A stretch of 34,240 bases of DNA from a virus: positions 1-34,240 of IMG/VR virus record IMGVR_UViG_3300044678_000812; one strand, given 5' to 3'. The notes below the pieces were generated by a model that saw only the letters and a list, made by a program, of their open reading frames with translations, had not been told where the DNA came from and did no database searches. The position numbers and the translations under genes were made by a program. This document shows positions 3,546-33,432 of the stretch, piece after piece; within the stretch, counting starts at the first letter, position 1, and the number at the start of each line of letters is the position of its first letter.

Positions 3546-6500
3546 TTACTCTCCAATCAATCTAGCAAACAGGACATCGTATGCTGCTTGAGCATTTGCG
3601 TTGCCCTCTGCTAACTGTTGTAACTTAGTCTTGATATTCATTTGCAAAAGGTCTTTGTAATTTTGAGCTGTTTCTGTATTGCCATAAATGGCATCTCTGG
3701 CATTCTGGTACTCATCAAAAGCTAGGCTCATCTGAGTTAGAACTGCTTTAGTCTTGGGTGATGCTGTAACTTCTTTGTCGTTTAGCATCTTACGCAAGTC
3801 ATCATAAGCACGGATACGACGAATCCTGCTTTCTGCACCCTTACCTAGTTCTTCCTGAAGCATTGGGCGTGAGCCTAAGAACTGCTCTTTCCAGATTGAG
3901 AACTGATCGCGTAGTTGACGCTTGCCTATATCTGTGTAGGTACTAGCAAGTTGAGTCTCAAACTGGTCACGAGTTGTGTAGTAAACCTGCTCATCTTTAG
4001 CGGTACTGATTTCGCGTAGGAAATCTTGCAAGGTTTTGTTCTGTTTCAAGCCTGAGTTATACAGTAACTTGTAAGCATCGAAGTTGAAGTCACCTTCGCG
4101 TGGCATTAAGAATACGCCACCCTCACGGTACTTCTTGAGTAAGCCTTCATTCTCTTGAATCCAGCCCACAGACTTATCTACTGAACGGGCTGCAAGTACA
4201 GATACGTTGTCAGATTCAGAGATGGTATATGGCATCTCATCTGGGAAGAGGCGAATCCACTCTTCCATTGCCTTATCAATACTGCCATACTGATTGATAA
4301 GTTGATTGAATACCTGCTTGTAAGATGTGCGCTCATTATCACGTACCCACTTTGATAGGTCACTCTTGAGTGTAATCTGTGGTGAAGCAGGTGCAATAAA
4401 TCCAAATAGTGCTCGCACTGCAAGAACAGAGATAGTGGCTGATTGTATTCTATCTTGATATTCTGCTAATTCTGCTGGGCTTGGCGGAATCTCTAAGCCA
4501 GTTTCTGGGTCAATCTTTGGTTTAATTCCGTGGCCTGATGCTTCTAGATATGTAGCAGCCTTACGGAATGCTGAGGCGTACTGAGAGTTGCGCTCGTCCT
4601 TGTTTAATGCTGCAAGAATACGGTTTACGTGACCTGGCAATGCTGCGTTAATCATTGGTTGATCTACGCCATAGGTACCAAGGAATGTTTCTTCAATAGT
4701 CTTTAGTTGTGGGACTACGTTGAAAATCATCTTCATTGGAACCGAAGCTAATGGACCAGCAAAGGTAGGAAACAGTGAGTCTGGGTTCATTGAAGGTGTA
4801 ATCATCTTCAACTTACCACCGAACTCAACAGGCATTGGAACCTGGAATGCAGTAGGTACGCCAAATGCCTTCATAATACCGTTCATTACTTTGTAAACAG
4901 GTGTTAGTCCTGGGTAGAAAAAGTATTGATCGCCATTATCATCTGTCTGTACAAAGCCTGAGTGTGCTACACCTTCATAAGTAAGTGATGCACGCGTCAA
5001 TGCTTCTGGGTTATACTTGACAGTACGGTAAACGCGGCGATAAAAGTCTTCGGTAGCGCGATAGAAACGCGCAAAGTTACGAGCAGACATAGCTAACTGG
5101 CTACGAACTGCAGGGTTATCTACAAATGCTAGAACGCGATCCTTGGCTAGGTCTTCTGCGATAGAAACAATATGGGCTTTGGCTGCATCTTCTGCAACTT
5201 TTAACTCATCACCAACTTTACCTCTGGTGAATTGCTCCATAATGCGCTTCTCAAAACCAGTAGCACGCATATCTTTACGAATACGAATCATTGAATCAAT
5301 GACTAGCGGCTCACGCGAGAAGCGAGCATTAGCTTCGCCCATATAATCCCAAGTCTTATCTACTAGAGATGCAGCAAAGTTATCGCTATCTGATACTGGC
5401 ACAAGCGTTGGACCAGATACCCATTCGGGTGCTAGGTCTGGGTTATTCTTATTAGGCAAGTCCTCTAGGCGAAACTCTTTGGTTGAAATAACCATATCGC
5501 CTTTTTCGTTGCGCTTACGAATCTTGCTTAGTAATTCGTCATTTACTTGACCATTACGCTTTGAGACTAGGTTCTTTGTAGATTCAACTACACGCTCTGC
5601 GTGTACACGGGTAGATGCACCTGTGCTGTATAGCGAGAATCGCTCACGCTCTTTTAATGACAGTTTATCTAGATAGTCCTGCACCGCGTTAATAGCGCGA
5701 GTTCCATCATCATCTAGATTCATCAAGGCAATACGGCCTAGTTCATCTTGAGATATGATACCAATTTGAACCATCCAGCTAATGCGTGCATCATCTGAAG
5801 CAATTGGGTTGAATTCTGAGTAAGCCTTTAGACCTGTAGCCTGCTTTAGTTTCTTGCCATTGACTTCAATAGCGCCCATCTTGCCAAACTTAGATACATC
5901 TCTAGTGGCATTGAAGTATTGGTCGCCGCCGCGAATAGCGTTCTTTCCACCTTCTGCAACAGCCCTTAGTGTGTCATCAAGATAACCAAACTCTGCAATT
6001 TCTTTAAGGAGTTCTGCGCCTTCAGCATCTAATTTAGAAATTACCTTTGATTCAAGGATGGCCTCAGCCAGAACCTTCTGTGCTGCACGTGGATTACCAG
6101 AAGCAATAGCATCTTCCATAGCCTTCTGATACTTAGCAGTCTGATTACGGTATACAAGTTTGTTAATAAAGCCTAGATTGCCTTGACCTTGTGCTTGGCG
6201 TAGTTTTGTAGAAAGCAAACGCGCTTTGGCTACACCCCAAGGTGAATCACCTACTGCTAAATGTAACATCAAGTCTTCTGCTGCGTTACGAACTGGAAAA
6301 CGTGGACCCGCAAGAGTACCGATTGACCAATATGAAGTCATTTTTTCAGCCCAGCTTTGGTGTGATACACCCATAACCCTGTCAATAATTCCAGAGCGAG
6401 CAGCAAGTCTGTCAAGATCTACAATAGATGGAACTGCCATATTAGGTGACAGTTGATAAGCAAAGATAGCCATTTGCTGACCATCAAATTCTGCAGGATT

Positions 6501-8195
6501 TGTGACTTCATTTACTTCGTCACCAAATTCATTTACTTTGCGCTTAATAACTGAAGCAGCATACTGCTTGTTTCTACCAGAACCTGCAAACTCATCCATA
6601 TAGGACTTGCCTGCTGCAGACTTTGATACACCACGTACCTCAGCTACGGTATTCCATAGTCCTGCAAAGATTTGCTTGCGCTGACCCTCTCCACCTGCAG
6701 CAAAAGTCTCAGCAATAATGCGAGAGTGGTAACGAGAGTTACCTAGACGTGCTAAGCGATAGACCTGAGTAGCAGCATCTGCTGCATTTACATCAAAGAA
6801 TCCATCTTTGAAGTATGGAATCGTTGTAAACTTACGAGCAAAGCGGTCAATACGTCCTTGGATTTGTGACAATGGCATACGATATGCGCCATCTGCGCCC
6901 TTAAAACGACCTACTTGCTTCTCTTGCTTGGCAATATCTTCAACACGGGTAGTAATACCTGTAACAATATCTTCGTATTGTGCGCTAGTACCATACAAAG
7001 CCTGGACAACTCTCTGTCCTACCTTGTCTATATTGAAAACTTTGTCAGTTGCTGTAAAGAAATTTACGCGAGCTTTACGTGCTGCATCTAAACGTGGCAC
7101 AAGTGGAGTCTTACGTGCAGATTGTCCAGCAAGAATAGTCTTGACATCCGCGTGATTTTGTAAATAAGCCTTAGCGGTATCAGCATTATTGACACCAGCA
7201 CGGATAAACTCATCTGTAGCTGCTGGTCCAAACTCTGGAGCTAAGCGACGTAAAGTAGATGATGCTTTTTCTGCAGCAACAATGTTGTTATTAGCACGAG
7301 CAACCTTGAGATTCTCAAGTTCCTTACCGTAAGTATTAAAGAAACCTACTACATTCTTGTTTTGAAATACTTTATCTACAGCGCCTGCATCTCCTGCTAT
7401 TTTGAATAGGGCATAGTTAGCAGCATCGTAGGCTTTTTTAGCTTTACCTAGTAAAAGTGTAGGATCTGCAAAGACTCTATATCCAGCATCTACAAAACCT
7501 GAGATACCTTTGTATAGAAACCCTGAACCTTCCAAACCTTCTGGAAGCAATAGGTTTGCTAATTGACGACCAGGTGAATACTTAGCAGCTTGTACTTTGT
7601 CAAGTGCATCTTGAAAGAGTTTATCTTGACCCTTTGCTGCTTCTGCAGCAATCTGCTTTTCAGCATCTGTACCACCAGCGATAATCTGGTCTAATGGGAC
7701 ACCTTGTGCAACCTTAACTGCTACGTTAATACGGTCTGAGCCATACTTGTTACGAGCATCTGCAAGGCGAGTAGGGCTAAATACTTGGTCACCTTTATCG
7801 TTTGCTATCTTGAATGCCTTGTCAAGGTCTACGCCTTGGTCAACAGCGATAGCGCCCGTACGATAAACACGGGTCATAAAATCTGATACTTCGTTTAATC
7901 CGCTAAATACACGACCTATAGTTTGCTTAACACCTTGACCTGCATAGTGAATAGCACCACCAAGCCAACCGCGCTTTTGCTCTGGAGCTTCATTATCATC
8001 TCCACCGAACAATGCAACGTGTGCAGTCTGTTGTTCTTGTGGTAATGATTGAAACTTTTGTTGAGCAGCAGGTGCAGGCAGCGATAATAGACCCTTATGA
8101 GAGTCTAATAACTTTTGTAAACCATCAACCTGAGCCTTTTGTTTTGCAGTAAGGCCAGCTTGCGCTGCTGAAGATGTGATTGAATTTTGTGGCAC
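3546..8195 (-). CDS. Very large (1549 aa) virion protein, candidate internal/ejection protein
   Basis: This is the largest gene in the window. GTG at 8195 shares its G with the upstream TAG. The protein is mostly helical with charged segments. It has no long hydrophobic heptad repeat as a tape measure would, and the neighbourhood lacks the tail-tube genes a siphovirus needs. Podoviruses often carry one or more large internal virion proteins encoded near the portal that are ejected with DNA, such as the T7 gp14-16 class, and this is the natural candidate. A conserved-looking stretch around residues 1010-1200 (for example FARFYRATEDFYRRVYRTV, YFFYPGLTPVYKVMNG) carries several Phe/Tyr/Pro/Gly-rich hydrophobic patches that could be membrane-active. 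I see no clear lysozyme or protease motif. Confidence 0.8.
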   Translation of the reverse strand: MPQNSITSSAAQAGLTAKQKAQVDGLQKLLDSHKGLLSLPAPAAQQKFQSLPQEQQTAHVALFGGDDNEAPEQKRGWLGGAIHYAGQGVKQTIGRVFSGLNEVSDFMTRVYRTGAIAVDQGVDLDKAFKIANDKGDQVFSPTRLADARNKYGSDRINVAVKVAQGVPLDQIIAGGTDAEKQIAAEAAKGQDKLFQDALDKVQAAKYSPGRQLANLLLPEGLEGSGFLYKGISGFVDAGYRVFADPTLLLGKAKKAYDAANYALFKIAGDAGAVDKVFQNKNVVGFFNTYGKELENLKVARANNNIVAAEKASSTLRRLAPEFGPAATDEFIRAGVNNADTAKAYLQNHADVKTILAGQSARKTPLVPRLDAARKARVNFFTATDKVFNIDKVGQRVVQALYGTSAQYEDIVTGITTRVEDIAKQEKQVGRFKGADGAYRMPLSQIQGRIDRFARKFTTIPYFKDGFFDVNAADAATQVYRLARLGNSRYHSRIIAETFAAGGEGQRKQIFAGLWNTVAEVRGVSKSAAGKSYMDEFAGSGRNKQYAASVIKRKVNEFGDEVNEVTNPAEFDGQQMAIFAYQLSPNMAVPSIVDLDRLAARSGIIDRVMGVSHQSWAEKMTSYWSIGTLAGPRFPVRNAAEDLMLHLAVGDSPWGVAKARLLSTKLRQAQGQGNLGFINKLVYRNQTAKYQKAMEDAIASGNPRAAQKVLAEAILESKVISKLDAEGAELLKEIAEFGYLDDTLRAVAEGGKNAIRGGDQYFNATRDVSKFGKMGAIEVNGKKLKQATGLKAYSEFNPIASDDARISWMVQIGIISQDELGRIALMNLDDDGTRAINAVQDYLDKLSLKERERFSLYSTGASTRVHAERVVESTKNLVSKRNGQVNDELLSKIRKRNEKGDMVISTKEFRLEDLPNKNNPDLAPEWVSGPTLVPVSDSDNFAASLVDKTWDYMGEANARFSREPLVIDSMIRIRKDMRATGFEKRIMEQFTRGKVGDELKVAEDAAKAHIVSIAEDLAKDRVLAFVDNPAVRSQLAMSARNFARFYRATEDFYRRVYRTVKYNPEALTRASLTYEGVAHSGFVQTDDNGDQYFFYPGLTPVYKVMNGIMKAFGVPTAFQVPMPVEFGGKLKMITPSMNPDSLFPTFAGPLASVPMKMIFNVVPQLKTIEETFLGTYGVDQPMINAALPGHVNRILAALNKDERNSQYASAFRKAATYLEASGHGIKPKIDPETGLEIPPSPAELAEYQDRIQSATISVLAVRALFGFIAPASPQITLKSDLSKWVRDNERTSYKQVFNQLINQYGSIDKAMEEWIRLFPDEMPYTISESDNVSVLAARSVDKSVGWIQENEGLLKKYREGGVFLMPREGDFNFDAYKLLYNSGLKQNKTLQDFLREISTAKDEQVYYTTRDQFETQLASTYTDIGKRQLRDQFSIWKEQFLGSRPMLQEELGKGAESRIRRIRAYDDLRKMLNDKEVTASPKTKAVLTQMSLAFDEYQNARDAIYGNTETAQNYKDLLQMNIKTKLQQLAEGNANAQAAYDVLFARLIGE

Positions 8196-14009: not shown

Positions 14010-14576
14010 ATGAATAAGACACTTTCAACAGATACACCTAACGCTTGGATCGGCTGCCTAAGCTGCTACAACAGCGGGACCCTATTCGGTAAGTGGATCG
14101 AAGGGACACAGGCGGCAGATCTAGAAGCTGCAGGCCTGGCTAAGGTTGAAACGGTAGGAGAATACACCGCTGCGCGTTGCGTGCGTTGCTTTGGTGATGA
14201 ATTCTCGGTGTTAGATCACGAGAATTTCCACGGGTTTATTAAGGGAGAATGCTCCACAGTAGAAGCGCAAGAAGCGGCGGAGCTAATCGAGAGCATACAG
14301 CGCCAGGGAATAGATATCGCTGCCGCTAGCGCCTGGATCTCTTTCACGGGCCAGGAATGGGATCTAAACAGCTTCGAAGACAGCTACCAGGGAGAGCGCG
14401 ACAGCTTCCAGGACTATGCGGAGGAGCTAGCGCGAGAGCTTTACGGGGATCAATTAGACGCGGCCCGCTGGCCCTTCTCCTGCATTAATTGGGAGCACGC
14501 TGCGCGAGAGCTCTCCTACGATTACCACACAGAGGAAGCTCCAGGCGGCGGCGTGTTTATATTCAGGAATTGCTAG
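14010..14576 (+). CDS. ardA: ArdA-like antirestriction protein
   Basis: ArdA proteins are acidic DNA mimics that block type I restriction enzymes, so an early phage copy would protect entering DNA. Seen: an N-terminal SCYNSGTLFGKWIEG motif (18-32) like the family's YNxGxxxGxW, DEFSVLDHENFHGF (63-76) matching the EEWxxxDYExF element, and a C-terminal acidic half with SYQGERDSFQDYAEELAREL and a GGGVFIF ending. The length of 188 aa is near the usual 165-190. It is strongly acidic. Odd: CxxC pairs at 16-19 and 57-60 could form a zinc site. The start is fixed by GGAGG seven bases upstream. It is the first gene of the plus-strand operon. Assignment is by motif, without a search. Confidence 0.82.
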   Translation: MNKTLSTDTPNAWIGCLSCYNSGTLFGKWIEGTQAADLEAAGLAKVETVGEYTAARCVRCFGDEFSVLDHENFHGFIKGECSTVEAQEAAELIESIQRQGIDIAAASAWISFTGQEWDLNSFEDSYQGERDSFQDYAEELARELYGDQLDAARWPFSCINWEHAARELSYDYHTEEAPGGGVFIFRNC

Positions 14577-22647: not shown

Positions 22648-23103
22648 TTACGCCCAAATCGTTGCCGCTTGTTGGTCCTTTGGAACTTTAGCACCAGTCC
22701 ACTTAGGACCAGTAGCAGGATCAAACCAACCCTTGTATGGCTTGCCAGTTGCTTGTGCCTTGCCGTGCTTTAGAACCATCTTTCCACGAGAGCACTCTGG
22801 TGCACTTGGGTGGTTGTATACCCAGATGTTGCCGTACTTATCGTTGATAGTTTCTTCTCCGCCAGCAGATACTGGTGCTGATGCTACTGCTGGTGCACTA
22901 GCGTAAACGGGAGCAGCAGGTGCAGCGCTTCCATACGCTTGACTTGTGCTTGTAATAAGGGCAGAAAAGTCAGAAGCTGCTGTTAGCAACCCTTCCAATT
23001 CCTCCTTGCTTGTAGCATAAAGGTTAATGAGAGTTCCATCTGGTGTCTTAAAATTGACTTGGAACTTTGTTGATTCTGGTGCAGCCACTTTACTTACCTC
23101 CAT
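22648..23103 (-). CDS. Hypothetical protein in replication operon (151 aa)
   Basis: N-terminal segment of about 55 aa (TKFQVNFKTPDGTLINLYAT) looks like a beta-rich domain followed by a helix. A Pro/Ala/Ser linker is at about 60-85, and a C-terminal aromatic/Lys domain contains KYGNIWVYNHPSAPECSRGK and GKPYKGWFDPATGPKW. The layout of globular part, linker and small C-terminal domain, next to nuclease and WhiB, might suit an ssDNA-binding or recombination-mediator role, but I recognise no family. ATG at 23103 overlaps the nuclease stop by 14 nt. Confidence 0.6.
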   Translation of the reverse strand: MEVSKVAAPESTKFQVNFKTPDGTLINLYATSKEELEGLLTAASDFSALITSTSQAYGSAAPAAPVYASAPAVASAPVSAGGEETINDKYGNIWVYNHPSAPECSRGKMVLKHGKAQATGKPYKGWFDPATGPKWTGAKVPKDQQAATIWA

Positions 23104-24031
23104 TATGTTTAATTGAAAGGCGCAGACTATCCTTGCCTTTTAGAGTTGGTACGAATCCAAGGATCTCTTGGACTTTTTCTTTATCTACTTGCTTAGGTCC
23201 AGCTACCTCTGTCCATCTAACTTCAACACCTGTAGCTGTAACCCCAACAATACCAGTCAGTGCTTCCTTGATTGCATCCTTCTGAGTTGTTAATTCTTTT
23301 ATCTTGTTATCTATCTGTAGATATTCCAAAGCCTGATTACTTGCCTCATCATTATCAATGAGTGGTAGTTCAGTCTTTGTACGTTCTTTTTTTAGACCAA
23401 CGCATCCAATCTCACCAGATGCGTCAAAGTATTTACAATAGAACTTGCAGTAGCTCTCATCCTTTTCAGGTTCAGGAGCAACCTCACTGGTCTTAATAGC
23501 CTCTAACCAAGAGAGGGCTTCGAGCGCAACAGCAGGGTCATACTTCTCCGTATGGACCTTGACATCGCGCTCGTCACCATCTCGCGGTATTGCTACCAGA
23601 TGAACATTAGTAACCTTCCCCAAGCCACTTTGTTCTATCAGGTATCCGTAAGTTTGTATTTGCCAGCGTTGCTGCTGACTTGGAAAGTAAGTGAGGTTCT
23701 TCAACTTCACTGTCTTCCAATCCACTACATCGCCTGTCCCAGGAATGTAGAGATCTACGTGAGCTTTCATTCCGTTATGTTCTACTGTTTGCTCTAGCAA
23801 AACTTCTTTGTTATTAGATAAAGCATTCTCTATAGAGTTATGGATAGCAGTACCCATAATAGCTGCGAGCTTTAGCTCTCCGCCATTGGTCTTCTCTTGT
23901 CCGTTTAATTTATACCAGACCTTACGCCGACAGCCACCTAACTCTGATGGACCTATCTGTGTCTGGAGCGACCTACCTCTACTGTTCTCTTTCTCGTAGA
24001 GAGCCTTAACTAATAAATCTTTTATATCCAT
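23090..24031 (-). CDS. Cas4/RecB-like exonuclease with 4-Cys site
   Basis: 313 aa. GTAIHNSIEN (60-69, His64), AHVDLYIPG (90-98, Asp93), GDVVDWKTVK (100-109, D104/K106) and QIQTYGYLIE (124-133) are the ordered motifs of the Cas4/AddB/RecB nuclease family. Cys34 and C195, C199, C210 match the four-Cys Fe-S site of Cas4-type nucleases. The last ~100 residues are a helical extension. It could process DNA ends for recombination. No CRISPR genes are near, so a CRISPR role is not indicated. Confidence 0.85.
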   Translation of the reverse strand: MDIKDLLVKALYEKENSRGRSLQTQIGPSELGGCRRKVWYKLNGQEKTNGGELKLAAIMGTAIHNSIENALSNNKEVLLEQTVEHNGMKAHVDLYIPGTGDVVDWKTVKLKNLTYFPSQQQRWQIQTYGYLIEQSGLGKVTNVHLVAIPRDGDERDVKVHTEKYDPAVALEALSWLEAIKTSEVAPEPEKDESYCKFYCKYFDASGEIGCVGLKKERTKTELPLIDNDEASNQALEYLQIDNKIKELTTQKDAIKEALTGIVGVTATGVEVRWTEVAGPKQVDKEKVQEILGFVPTLKGKDSLRLSIKHNGGK

Positions 24032-24201
24032 TTATGCTTTTCCCACCTAGTTATTGTGAAGCGGAATACTATCAGATTTATTACTAACATTCTAGCAATT
24101 AACCTGTATGGCATAGTGTCATAGTCGTGAAAGTAATCAATACCAAAGCCCCAGTTATTCAAACTACCAAAACTGAAATGAATTGAATAGTCTCGTATCA
24201 C
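24022..24201 (-). CDS. Hypothetical small protein (59 aa)
   Basis: GTG at 24201 overlaps the proteasome-like stop (GTGA), and its end overlaps the nuclease start by 10 nt. It is aromatic-rich (SIHFSFGSLNNWGFGIDYF) with a hydrophobic basic C-terminus (LIARMLVINLIVFRFTI) that could be amphipathic or membrane-associated. It fills the gap between two firm genes exactly. No family recognised. Confidence 0.65.
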   Translation of the reverse strand: MIRDYSIHFSFGSLNNWGFGIDYFHDYDTMPYRLIARMLVINLIVFRFTITRWEKHKWI

Positions 24202-24764
24202 GTTATTATCCTTCCTTGAGAGACTAATTGAATCGGAGGACAGGTATTGATGTCAAGGATGCTGGCTATTTGAACAGCGCGTTCGGCGTGTTGGTCAACA
24301 TTACCTAGCGTAAGACGATTAACGCGACCATAGAGATAGCCGAGAGCATAAGCGCCACCACTACCCAAGCCGTAAATACCTTTGTCGGACTGGATGAACG
24401 AGAGGTCAGTTGCAATATGGAATAGGTTGCCATCAAACGCGACAAGGTAGTCGAACCCTGTTTCTTTATCTTTGGTTGCTTCATACGGGTCGTATCCATT
24501 CTCTTTGAAAGCCTTCAGGATTGAAGGCATAACTTTCTTACCCATCCACTGCACGGGATCAGCTCCCTTGTAAGGTGGCGGGCTCCAGTTGTAAGCCAAG
24601 ATATCAGCAGGCCTGGAATCTCCTACCAGTCCTATCAAGTATCTACCAACGTTAATAATCTTAGGTGTGGTACTACTTATAGTCCGTAAATTATCTTCAG
24701 TAATCTGGCTATCAGCAGCCAGTATCACCATATCTTCAATCTGAATTCCTACCAGTGTCGTCAT
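24198..24764 (-). CDS. Proteasome beta-subunit/HslV-like Ntn hydrolase
   Basis: The 20S beta and HslV subunits form rings with an N-terminal Thr nucleophile for proteolysis. Read from ATG 24764, the protein is M-TTLVGIQIEDMVILAADS: Thr1 after Met removal, the GI strand, Asp17 in AADS and a Lys at about residue 34 (TPKIINVG; Lys33 in the family). GLGSGGAYALGYLYGRV near 125 fits the conserved glycine turn. 188 aa, close to HslV and beta subunits, with no propeptide. An upstream in-frame ATG (24821) would add 19 residues and hide the Thr, so I reject it. It heads the early minus operon. A hijacked or decoy host-proteolysis role is possible, and an unrelated Ntn role cannot be excluded. Confidence 0.82.
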   Translation of the reverse strand: MTTLVGIQIEDMVILAADSQITEDNLRTISSTTPKIINVGRYLIGLVGDSRPADILAYNWSPPPYKGADPVQWMGKKVMPSILKAFKENGYDPYEATKDKETGFDYLVAFDGNLFHIATDLSFIQSDKGIYGLGSGGAYALGYLYGRVNRLTLGNVDQHAERAVQIASILDINTCPPIQLVSQGRIIT

Positions 24765-24790
24765 AGCAGAGAAATATACCTTCACTCGGC

Positions 24791-24811
24791 GTGTCGTACC
24801 AGTAACGACAC
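24791..24811. repeat. Perfect 7-bp inverted repeat upstream of the proteasome-like gene
   Basis: GTGTCGT at 24791-24797 and ACGACAC at 24805-24811 flank a 7-nt loop. The arm-centre spacing is 14 bp, suiting a dimeric regulator, or it forms an RNA hairpin. It lies 27-47 nt upstream of the preferred ATG at 24764. Confidence 0.6.
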
Positions 24812-24862
24812 ACCTTGTCATTAAACTATGAGCGGAGCGAATAAATAGTAACAGCGTTCCGA

Positions 24863-24915: not shown

Positions 24916-25143
24916 GTGTTGTTCCGTCTACTTCGGCTGCTTAGATTACCACCTATCAAAGCAGCAGATCTCAGGTCCCTTGGACCTACCCACGTCTGTA
25001 GCTGTGGCTGTACTATGTTTAACATTATGGCTCAGTTCCAAGACTATGAGATATCTTGGTACTTTCTTGATGCTACCTGTGTTAACTGCGGTAACCTAGT
25101 TCGTATCCCTTGTCCTGTTGATAACAGCGAGAATAGTTTTTAG
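24916..25143 (+). CDS. Lone plus-strand zinc-ribbon protein (75 aa)
   Basis: GTG at 24916 has AGGAAGGAG about 11 nt upstream. VCSCGC (27-32) and CVNCG (55-59) supply four or more Cys for a zinc site around a beta segment (MAQFQDYEISWYFLDAT). Isolated on the plus strand between two minus operons and followed by a strong hairpin. Small CxxC proteins of this type are frequent in actinophages, but I know no function. Confidence 0.65.
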   Translation: MLFRLLRLLRLPPIKAADLRSLGPTHVCSCGCTMFNIMAQFQDYEISWYFLDATCVNCGNLVRIPCPVDNSENSF

Positions 25144-31457: not shown

Positions 31458-32372
31458 TTATTTTGTGTAGTGGATACGAATTGGATATTTGTCTGCCAAC
31501 TTCAACGATTCCTCTTGTAGTCGTTGTTGATACAGAGCAAAGACATAACGAGATGCAGAAGCGCCAGAGTTGTACGGATTCTTGGTGTCATTAAGGTCAG
31601 CCTCAGCACTAGTAAGATTGATACGACCAGTGTCAAGGAATGATAGAAGTTTGTAGCAGGCACCGAGGATGGTTACATCTACTGTGCTTGCAGGCAGACC
31701 AGTGACATCTGCATAGTCATCGGTACTAGCATCAAGGGTATTACCTTCTGTTGTATACCAGACCTGAACGGTACGACCAGGTTGTATGTTTTCATAGATG
31801 TTCACCGTATTGTTAGTATTAAAGGTCGCAGCATTTGCCATTGGGTCTGCTCTCCAGCGATTGACTGGTAACCATTCTTTAGATGAACCTGTGGTCTGCC
31901 ACGATATAAACAAGATACTCTCTAAATCATCAGGTAGAGCATAGGTAGTCTGTGATGCGTTGAATGTAAAGGTAGTTGAACTTACTGCCCAGAGTTTAGG
32001 GAAGTAACTGTTGATAGTATCGTTGATAGCCTTCTTTATGCTGATACGTGGAAAGGTTGGGGATAGTGTTACTTGAGCATACTGTGCGTGTGGTGATGCT
32101 GTGGTTCCTTGGAAGCCACGACCAATCGGGTTAGTCGGAGCACCCATAACGTTGAGAGTATTGTTTGTCTTGTTGAAGGAATCAATCCAAATCAACTCAT
32201 CATCAATTTCAATCAAACCTTTGGCAAGGTTATCTCCTGAACCAACCTGAATTGACAAACTAGAAGTCGTCAGACCAGCCGAGTTATTTACATAAGTGAT
32301 GCGATCTTGACGAAGAGAATAACCCTGTAGGTTAGTCCGTACCTCGTCTATCATCTCCGACAGTGTTGGCAT
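31458..32372 (-). CDS. Tail adaptor/tubular-like protein (304 aa)
   Basis: ATG at 32372 has GGAAGGAAA upstream, better than the earlier in-frame ATG at 32396. The first 20 residues form an amphipathic helix (MPTLSEMIDEVRTNLQGYSL), then a beta-rich middle and helical end with LYQQRLQEESLKLAD. Upstream of the fibre genes and similar in layout to phage tail adaptor proteins. The specific function is inferred; it overlaps the glycosyltransferase gene by 41 nt. Confidence 0.65.
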   Translation of the reverse strand: MPTLSEMIDEVRTNLQGYSLRQDRITYVNNSAGLTTSSLSIQVGSGDNLAKGLIEIDDELIWIDSFNKTNNTLNVMGAPTNPIGRGFQGTTASPHAQYAQVTLSPTFPRISIKKAINDTINSYFPKLWAVSSTTFTFNASQTTYALPDDLESILFISWQTTGSSKEWLPVNRWRADPMANAATFNTNNTVNIYENIQPGRTVQVWYTTEGNTLDASTDDYADVTGLPASTVDVTILGACYKLLSFLDTGRINLTSAEADLNDTKNPYNSGASASRYVFALYQQRLQEESLKLADKYPIRIHYTK

Positions 32373-33432
32373 TGTTTCCTTCCGTATACCAGCCATCTCC
32401 CCACAGAGTTTCTAATCTGCGGAAGTATTTCTCATATTGTTTCGCAATAACATCTACGGAGTAGAGCGATACTGCTCTCTCTCGTATTGCATTGCGATCT
32501 AAGTTCTTGACATTCTGAGTTGCCAAGACGAATTCTTCAACGTTGCGACATCTAAAGCCTGTCACACCTTCTATAACAGTTTCAGTAAATGCACCCCAGT
32601 CTGTTGTGATTACTGGAGTTCCACAGGCTTGTGATTCAATGTTCACATTGCCAAAGGGTTCTAGGTATAAAGTCGGTACAAATGTAGCTATTGCTCCACC
32701 CATCAACTCTGCTCGCTTCTCAGGTCCAACAGGTCCGATATACTCACCATAGTTCGGGATATGTGGGCCAGGTCCTGCAAAGATTAAACGAGCACCGATA
32801 AGTTTGCAGATATGCGCTGCGATATCTATGCCTTTACGTGGAACCATTCTGCCTATGTAAAGGTAATAATCTCCATCGCCTTTACCTAGCGGGAACATAT
32901 CAGGATCTAAGTAACCTGGAATGACCGCATCAAAGAATGAACCATCTACTTGCGCTGCGTTCTGATGTTGAGCATAGACTGCGTGCATCCAGGCATATGA
33001 TTCAAATACTCGATACTTAGAAAAGATACCTGAGTATCCAACACCGAACTCCACTGTCATCATATGTGGCAGTGCATCTGAGATTGGCTTATGACTTGCT
33101 CCGCCAATGACACAGATAAAATCTGTCTTCTCTGCTCGCTTGCGTATCTCGTTAGCAGCTTTCTTATTAAACTTCTGCCAGTGAGGTAAACGGTAATCAA
33201 ACGGAGCTTCTACATAAGGCTTGTTACCTACAACAATACGTCGTTGCGTTTCAGTGATACAAGGAATAAGTTCATCTACTTCGGCTTCATTCTTTTCGCC
33301 TGCGTAGAGATAGACTGTATGGCCTAAGCCCTTCATCATATTGCAGAACCTGCGTACCTTTTCAGTGTACGCACAGCCTGCGAAATCTTTAGTTGTGTTA
33401 GTATGTGGTAGTGCTACGACGTGGAATCTCAT
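32332..33432 (-). CDS. GT4-like glycosyltransferase
   Basis: GT-B fold enzyme of 366 aa. YLYIGRMVPRKGID (190-203), RLIFAGPGP, and LEPFGNVNIESQACGTPVIT (257-276) with the EX7E pair Glu258/Glu266 are the family's sugar-nucleotide motifs. It transfers an activated sugar to a so far unknown acceptor. It stands next to a GT25 and a collagen-like gene, so a virion-protein acceptor is possible; host-wall modification is the other option. Confidence 0.85.
   Translation of the reverse strand: MRFHVVALPHTNTTKDFAGCAYTEKVRRFCNMMKGLGHTVYLYAGEKNEAEVDELIPCITETQRRIVVGNKPYVEAPFDYRLPHWQKFNKKAANEIRKRAEKTDFICVIGGASHKPISDALPHMMTVEFGVGYSGIFSKYRVFESYAWMHAVYAQHQNAAQVDGSFFDAVIPGYLDPDMFPLGKGDGDYYLYIGRMVPRKGIDIAAHICKLIGARLIFAGPGPHIPNYGEYIGPVGPEKRAELMGGAIATFVPTLYLEPFGNVNIESQACGTPVITTDWGAFTETVIEGVTGFRCRNVEEFVLATQNVKNLDRNAIRERAVSLYSVDVIAKQYEKYFRRLETLWGDGWYTEGNNANTVGDDRRGTD

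Follow-up and report, generated by a model that had tools for sequence, protein, structure and literature searches.

The window, by which we mean the whole stretch of viral DNA analysed (34,240 bases), carries a WhiB gene and comes from a virus of freshwater actinobacteria. On its minus strand lies a gene encoding a proteasome-like Ntn-hydrolase, flanked by a conserved leader repeat and a small divergent open reading frame on one side and by a nuclease gene on the other. Residues are numbered from the threonine that follows the initiator methionine, and the features discussed below are as follows.

24198-24764, minus strand: proteasome-like Ntn-hydrolase gene, 188 aa
24762-24764, minus strand: start codon, followed by the catalytic Thr1 codon at 24759-24761, without propeptide
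24711-24713, minus strand: Asp17 codon, conserved in 66 of 66 distinct proteins
24660-24662, minus strand: codon of Lys34, counterpart of proteasome Lys33, conserved in 66 of 66 distinct proteins
24360-24362, minus strand: codon of Ser134 in the GSGG turn, presumed counterpart of Ser129 (Ser in 64 of 66, Thr in 2)
24243-24254, minus strand: Asp170-x-x-Thr173, presumed counterparts of Asp166 and Ser169 (Asp in 66 of 66; Thr in 64 and Ser in 2)
24791-24811, minus strand: inverted repeat conserved in the 5' leader (GTGTCGT-N7-ACGACAC), 26 nt ahead of the start codon
23090-24031, minus strand: RecB/Cas4-like exonuclease (PHROG), the next gene downstream
24916-25143, plus strand: divergent small ORF that has paired cysteines (CSCGC and CVNC) and a homologue in phage LanE43-AprE7 (E7)
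In E7 (L143:5698-8036): portal gene at 5698-7482 and homologue of the proteasome-like gene at 7500-8036

The initial annotation placed the gene at 24198-24811. An open reading frame does exist there, but its start lies at 24764, and the dyad at 24791-24811 is therefore upstream of the gene. The frame listed by program is longer still (24198-24821, minus strand, 207 aa, with an ATG at 24821). Judged from related sequences, the start codon in use is almost certainly 24764, giving a 188-aa product whose N-terminus, MTTLVGIQIEDMVILAADSQ, reads Met-Thr-Thr (MTTLVGIQ...). Comparison of 107 loci, which reduce to 82 distinct close loci, finds ATG at the aligned start position in 56, GTG in 23 and ATA in 3. 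No in-frame ATG, GTG or TTG occurs upstream in 41 of the 82 (one of them, L041, ends at a contig edge), and the other 41, the window's type included, have an in-frame upstream start. Among distant homologues, read in E7, DSL-LC01, L140, L141 and L142 with F5 left out, the frame is closed by a stop 4 to 9 codons upstream, and no start codon intervenes. The 24821 start is rejected because half of the distinct relatives lack an upstream start and because the extra stretch holds the conserved repeat. With the start at 24764, removal of Met alone exposes Thr1, and the protein thus has no propeptide, as had been proposed. Most proteasome beta subunits carry an N-terminal propeptide, according to the family survey (PMC8665760); a propeptide of the PrcB type is missing here, as judged from the 41 distinct loci and the five distant homologues.

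The leader repeat is an exact inverted repeat of 7+7 bp and the sole mismatch-free copy in the window. After five of 108 loci had been dropped for short flanks, 63 distinct upstream stretches remained, and 59 of these contain the repeat. Of the other four, L127 differs by a single mismatch, and in L021, L033 and L034 a gene has been inserted, which the repeat precedes. Across the 59 stretches, the repeat has a total span of 18 to 21 nt and a loop of 3 to 9 nt, and 23 to 30 nt separate its end from the start codon; at the seventh stem position, 18 have a C-G pair, 13 a T-A pair and 28 no pair. Because the spacing varies, a leader RNA hairpin would fit better than a protein-bound DNA dyad. At gathering score, Rfam detects no family in the window, L021, L033 or L034. 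Between 24000 and 25400, no sigma-70-type promoter was found (2.5 are expected in shuffled sequence), and three terminator-like sites occur where 1.0 is expected; the one at 24868-24850 lies directly upstream of the repeat.

A separate observation concerns the inserted gene, which encodes a 138-aa protein resembling recombination endonuclease VII (Pfam, from the L021 copy). It sits at the start codon in L021 (3013-3429) and at the same place in L033 and L034, capturing both the leader and the ATG, and the proteasome-like frame then opens with an ATA that overlaps the stop codon of the insert. This gene may be a free-standing homing endonuclease that targets the region of the Thr1 codon.

The encoded protein is a proteasome-like Ntn-hydrolase, as supported by Pfam, PHROG 1040 and an AlphaFold model, and the original assignment to a phage-encoded subunit of the proteasome/HslV type is borne out to that extent. 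Pfam Proteasome (PF00227) matches residues 2-44 only, at 26.9 bits against a cut-off of 22.4, and PHROG 1040, "peptidase HslV family", covers residues 1-184 (E 1.3e-23). The model of the 188-aa protein, built on an alignment of 34 sequences (A2), reaches a pLDDT of 88.7 and a pTM of 0.86. It has 10 strands of at least three residues and main helices at 51-59, 70-88, 137-145 and 156-170; that is, it has the beta core and two flanking helix pairs of the Ntn fold. The top Foldseek match is BPH (5ovs, E 4e-12). In VIA-align, BPH 5ovt scores Z 20.2 (2.7 A over 174 residues), 20S beta up to Z 19.4, E. coli HslV (4g4e) Z 18.7 and M. tuberculosis 20S (3hfa) Z 18.6, so that the scores of the three families lie close together. 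Against the viral library, 39 proteins reach E 0.001 or better. The model may lean mildly toward BPH because A2 included three BPH-like bacterial rows.

Profile A3, made of 24 phage sequences without bacterial rows, likewise finds BPH chains at the top among solved structures (9.8e-10 and 1.5e-9), followed by HslV (from 1.8e-8) and 20S beta, a ranking that would favour BPH narrowly. A single-sequence phmmer search of solved proteins yields only a weak match to 5ovu (E 0.002), behind a short, spurious one at 0.0014; transglutaminase matches were disregarded as short and local. A weak hint of BPH kinship comes from the loop after the helix pair (residues 89-103), where one pairwise alignment matches a DPYE stretch to C. 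metallidurans BPH; the profile alignment puts the stretch elsewhere. A chance match to the proteasome family is ruled out by the Pfam, PHROG and fold matches together with the conserved residues. In the tree, the window group forms a clade separate from BPH; only 8 of 27 inner branches are well supported and branches are long, and the tree is therefore used for the close clade alone.

Residue conservation was assessed in 66 distinct proteins, obtained from 108 loci after three partial ones had been dropped. Thr1, Asp17, Lys34, Gly44, Gly47 and Asp170 are invariant in all 66, and the first three also appear in 24 of 24 rows of A3. The initial annotation had named a Thr directly after the first Met, Asp17, a Lys near 33-34 and a late GSGG turn. 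Each is present, with Ser134 in the turn, and no homologue among the 66 has lost Thr1, Asp17 or the Lys; the exact position of the latter is 34 after Met removal rather than 33, and as a full active-site set the list had missed Asp170 and Thr173. We take Ser134, Asp170 and Thr173 to correspond to proteasome Ser129, Asp166 and Ser169, and Lys34 to stand one residue later than the Lys of HslV and the 20S proteasome. Thr1, Asp17 and Lys33 are given as the proteasome active-site residues in PMC8665760. Three bacterial rows of A2 (L084, L089 and L090) carry Ser instead of Thr at position 1. Of 400 sampled pairs, 327 were usable; their dN/dS has a median of 0.12 and a maximum of 0.29, indicating that the gene is under purifying selection. 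Together with the invariance of the catalytic residues, this selection makes the suggested decoy unlikely; the protein looks like an enzyme under selection and not like a dead decoy.

After a gap of 166 nt, the gene is followed by the exonuclease, WhiB and replication genes. In 103 of 107 close loci the exonuclease is the immediate neighbour, the remaining four being too short to tell, and it is absent from that place in all six distant loci tested. The gene therefore heads the replication operon and holds a fixed place in the close clade, and the initial annotation, which had it lead an early-type operon, is correct in position; synteny in related phages extends to these close loci but not to the six distant ones. 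The divergent small ORF has no Pfam match. Of 113 loci, 97 have it as the adjacent gene and 3 have it elsewhere; in 5 it was not found, and 8 are too short. More distant phages carry the homologue among PhoH, ribonucleotide reductase or thymidylate synthase genes, and others among small genes of no assigned role or beside WhiB about 5 kb before the terminase. A PADLOC defence search (E 0.1) returned no match for the proteasome-like protein.

E7, a phage isolated on 'Ca. Planktophila' LanE-43 (PMC10202952), has terminase (46%), portal (51%), tail and replication genes in common with the window. This kinship and the WhiB gene agree with the proposed actinobacterial host. The record is probably a fragment, since no convincing major capsid match is found in it and several relatives, at 38-41 kb, are longer. 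Compared with the major capsid protein of Streptomyces phage Immanuel3, which E7 does match, the best score in the window is E 1.8. The frame at 31458-32396 was rejected as a capsid gene, as it matches Immanuel3 23057-23986, annotated hypothetical. Elsewhere in the window, an ArdA-type antirestriction gene lies at 14010-14576 (Pfam, 65 bits) and a glycosyltransferase gene at 32332-33432. The top phage-record matches of the latter, at about 40% identity, are Synechococcus phages ACG-2014f, and its 56 matching records comprise 51 titled Synechococcus and 5 titled 'Bacteriophage'.

Relatives of the proteasome-like protein are encoded on at least 578 IMG/VR stretches in the broader of two scans and on 278 confirmed ones in the narrower, 80 loci being kept from each. 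In a set of 84,980 bacterial and archaeal species, one genome per species, 10 loci were confirmed at 22-37% identity, none titled Actinobacteria. That scan is pattern-based and misses distant members; because it would reveal close ones, the close clade looks viral. More distant homologues occur in the isolated actinophages LanE43-AprE7 and F5, DSL-LC01, Microbacterium phage Pumpernickel and Arthrobacter phages Hum25 and Pitbull, where they are annotated as 'protease' or HslV or lack annotation and occupy genomic places different from that in the window. Those of E7, F5 and DSL-LC01 show 27-32% identity to the window protein, depending on method, and those of Pumpernickel, Hum25 and Pitbull are matched only with E7 or L140 as query. 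In the cultured 'Ca. Planktophila' phages E7 and F5, whose records are both unannotated, the homologue adjoins the portal gene. Homologues also occur in phages of Vibrio, Pantoea and Pseudoalteromonas.

The reading we favour, with a probability of about 0.55, is that the gene encodes an active, homo-oligomeric threonine peptidase of a BPH/HslV-like branch, which works without an unfoldase, is made with the replication genes and serves host takeover. As a compact proteasome relative lacking a propeptide, the protein would become active once host Met aminopeptidase had stripped the initiator Met and bared Thr1. The subunits would then close into a homo-oligomer, most likely a double ring; BPH and HslV are both described as double rings (PMC8665760). 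Such a peptidase could act on unfolded or small proteins unaided. Takeover, the weakest step, is suggested because the enzyme would be made together with the replication genes, and it might consist in removing particular host proteins or in recycling amino acids in a nutrient-poor host. This timing argument fails for E7 and F5, in which the homologue lies beside the portal gene, outside the replication operon. Independence from an unfoldase is favoured because AAA_2 (PF07724, the Clp/HslU type) is found in none of 18 phage records, some of them fragments, with the control positive in 14 of 14 genomes, and because BPH apparently works without an unfoldase (PMC8665760). Counting against it, AAA (PF00004) matches occur in 4 of the 18 records. 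Those of E7 and F5 fall on the DnaB-like helicase gene and on an equally long frame, respectively, and those of DSL-LC01, at two places, and of the L140 contig fall on ATPases of no assigned role. A more specific version remains tentative, namely that a widespread freshwater actinophage lineage has placed a virus-specific, self-sufficient proteasome at the head of its replication operon for early, unfoldase-free degradation of host or defence proteins or for amino-acid recycling.

The absence of PF07724 from the 18 phage records can also be read the other way, since HslV needs HslU: the peptidase might depend entirely on a host AAA+ protein (ClpX, ClpC or Mpa), which would choose its substrates. 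Actinobacteria generally lack HslUV. We consider this dependence rather unlikely, given the unfoldase-free behaviour apparent for BPH (PMC8665760). Recruitment into the host's own machine, the subunit joining or plugging the 20S proteasome (PrcA/PrcB) and redirecting or poisoning it, was raised by the initial annotation and is no longer favoured; it now seems very improbable. Actinobacteria commonly have a Pup-proteasome, and the predicted fold aligns with the M. tuberculosis 20S (Z 18.6). Nevertheless, the profile is nearest to BPH and then HslV, the curated cut-offs of HslV and archaeal beta fail, and no PrcB is recognised among the best 60 of 95 profile matches, which include BPH, HslV and archaeal or eukaryotic beta subunits. 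The invariant active site argues against a dead plug, and the homologues in phages of Vibrio, Pantoea and Pseudoalteromonas argue against dependence on a host 20S proteasome, which these hosts are not known to have.

Prohead proteases often sit beside the portal gene, as the homologue does in cultured E7 and F5, and the enzyme could accordingly stand in for one during morphogenesis, maturing a capsid protein or an internal protein of the virion. This is quite unlikely: in the window clade the gene precedes the replication-operon exonuclease at 103 of 107 loci, the other four being too short, and distant homologues lie with nucleotide-metabolism genes, among small genes or beside WhiB. Moreover, Immanuel3, which has terminase, portal and tail genes in common with the window and the major capsid protein in common with E7, lacks any match to the family profile (E up to 10, frames of at least 60 aa). 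About as improbable is a role in which Thr1 serves transpeptidation or ligation instead of proteolysis. The family does include a ligase, connectase (PMC8665760); the S3-S4 insertion that marks connectase (PMC8665760) is not seen, however, in the predicted model, where strands 20-23, 26-29 and 36-39 follow closely (the S3/S4 numbering is our own reading). The unfoldase-free threonine peptidase thus remains the preferred reading.

The clade is of interest for its frequency in viral metagenomes (the IMG/VR stretches above), its invariant active site and its fixed gene place. Distant homologues occur in two cultured 'Ca. Planktophila' phages and in Microbacterium and Arthrobacter isolates, and because cultured phages carry them, the role of viral proteasome relatives is testable in laboratory phage-host pairs. 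If the proposed function is true, a viral proteasome relative would, as far as we are aware, have a defined role for the first time; we know of no phage member with an established activity, oligomer or substrate.

Whether the system had already been described was left open initially. Its kind had been: phage proteasome homologues (PPH, AAH) were described by Fuchs, Alva and Lupas in 2021, with no function given and no activity, oligomer or substrate of phage members reported (PMC8665760). For this clade, no paper was found in the open-licence literature searched. That literature yielded nothing on 'phage-encoded proteasome' and, on proteasomes in the hosts, nothing for Nanopelagicales and only NirBD work, judged unrelated, for Planktophila. 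Like PPH, the window protein is viral, caudoviral and proteasome-like; PPH, however, has about 140 residues and lacks helix H2 (PMC8665760), and membership is ruled out by the 188-residue length and the predicted second helix (70-88, read as H2). With HslV (ClpQ) it shares the fold, Thr1/Asp17/Lys, GSGG and the lack of a C-terminal extension, but HslV identity is ruled out by the curated cut-offs, which it misses widely (NCBIfam NF003964, 28.1 of 137 bits; TIGR03692, 27 of 157.75 bits). The archaeal 20S beta model TIGR03634 is likewise not reached (28.7 of 224 bits). BPH (5ovs, 5ovt, 5ovu) is, narrowly, the nearest solved structure by profile and by fold and shares Thr1, Asp17 and GSG, although identity over the fold is only about 24%, BPH is bacterial rather than viral, and the Lys at 34 in the window protein is at 36 in C. 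metallidurans BPH (5ovu), as read from the pairwise alignment. The 2021 survey detected AAH in no phage specific to Actinobacteria (PMC8665760). By description, AAH resembles the window protein in being a compact group I member without propeptide and without S12/H5, a build common to other group I families as well, and it occurs in both phages and Actinobacteria (PMC8665760).
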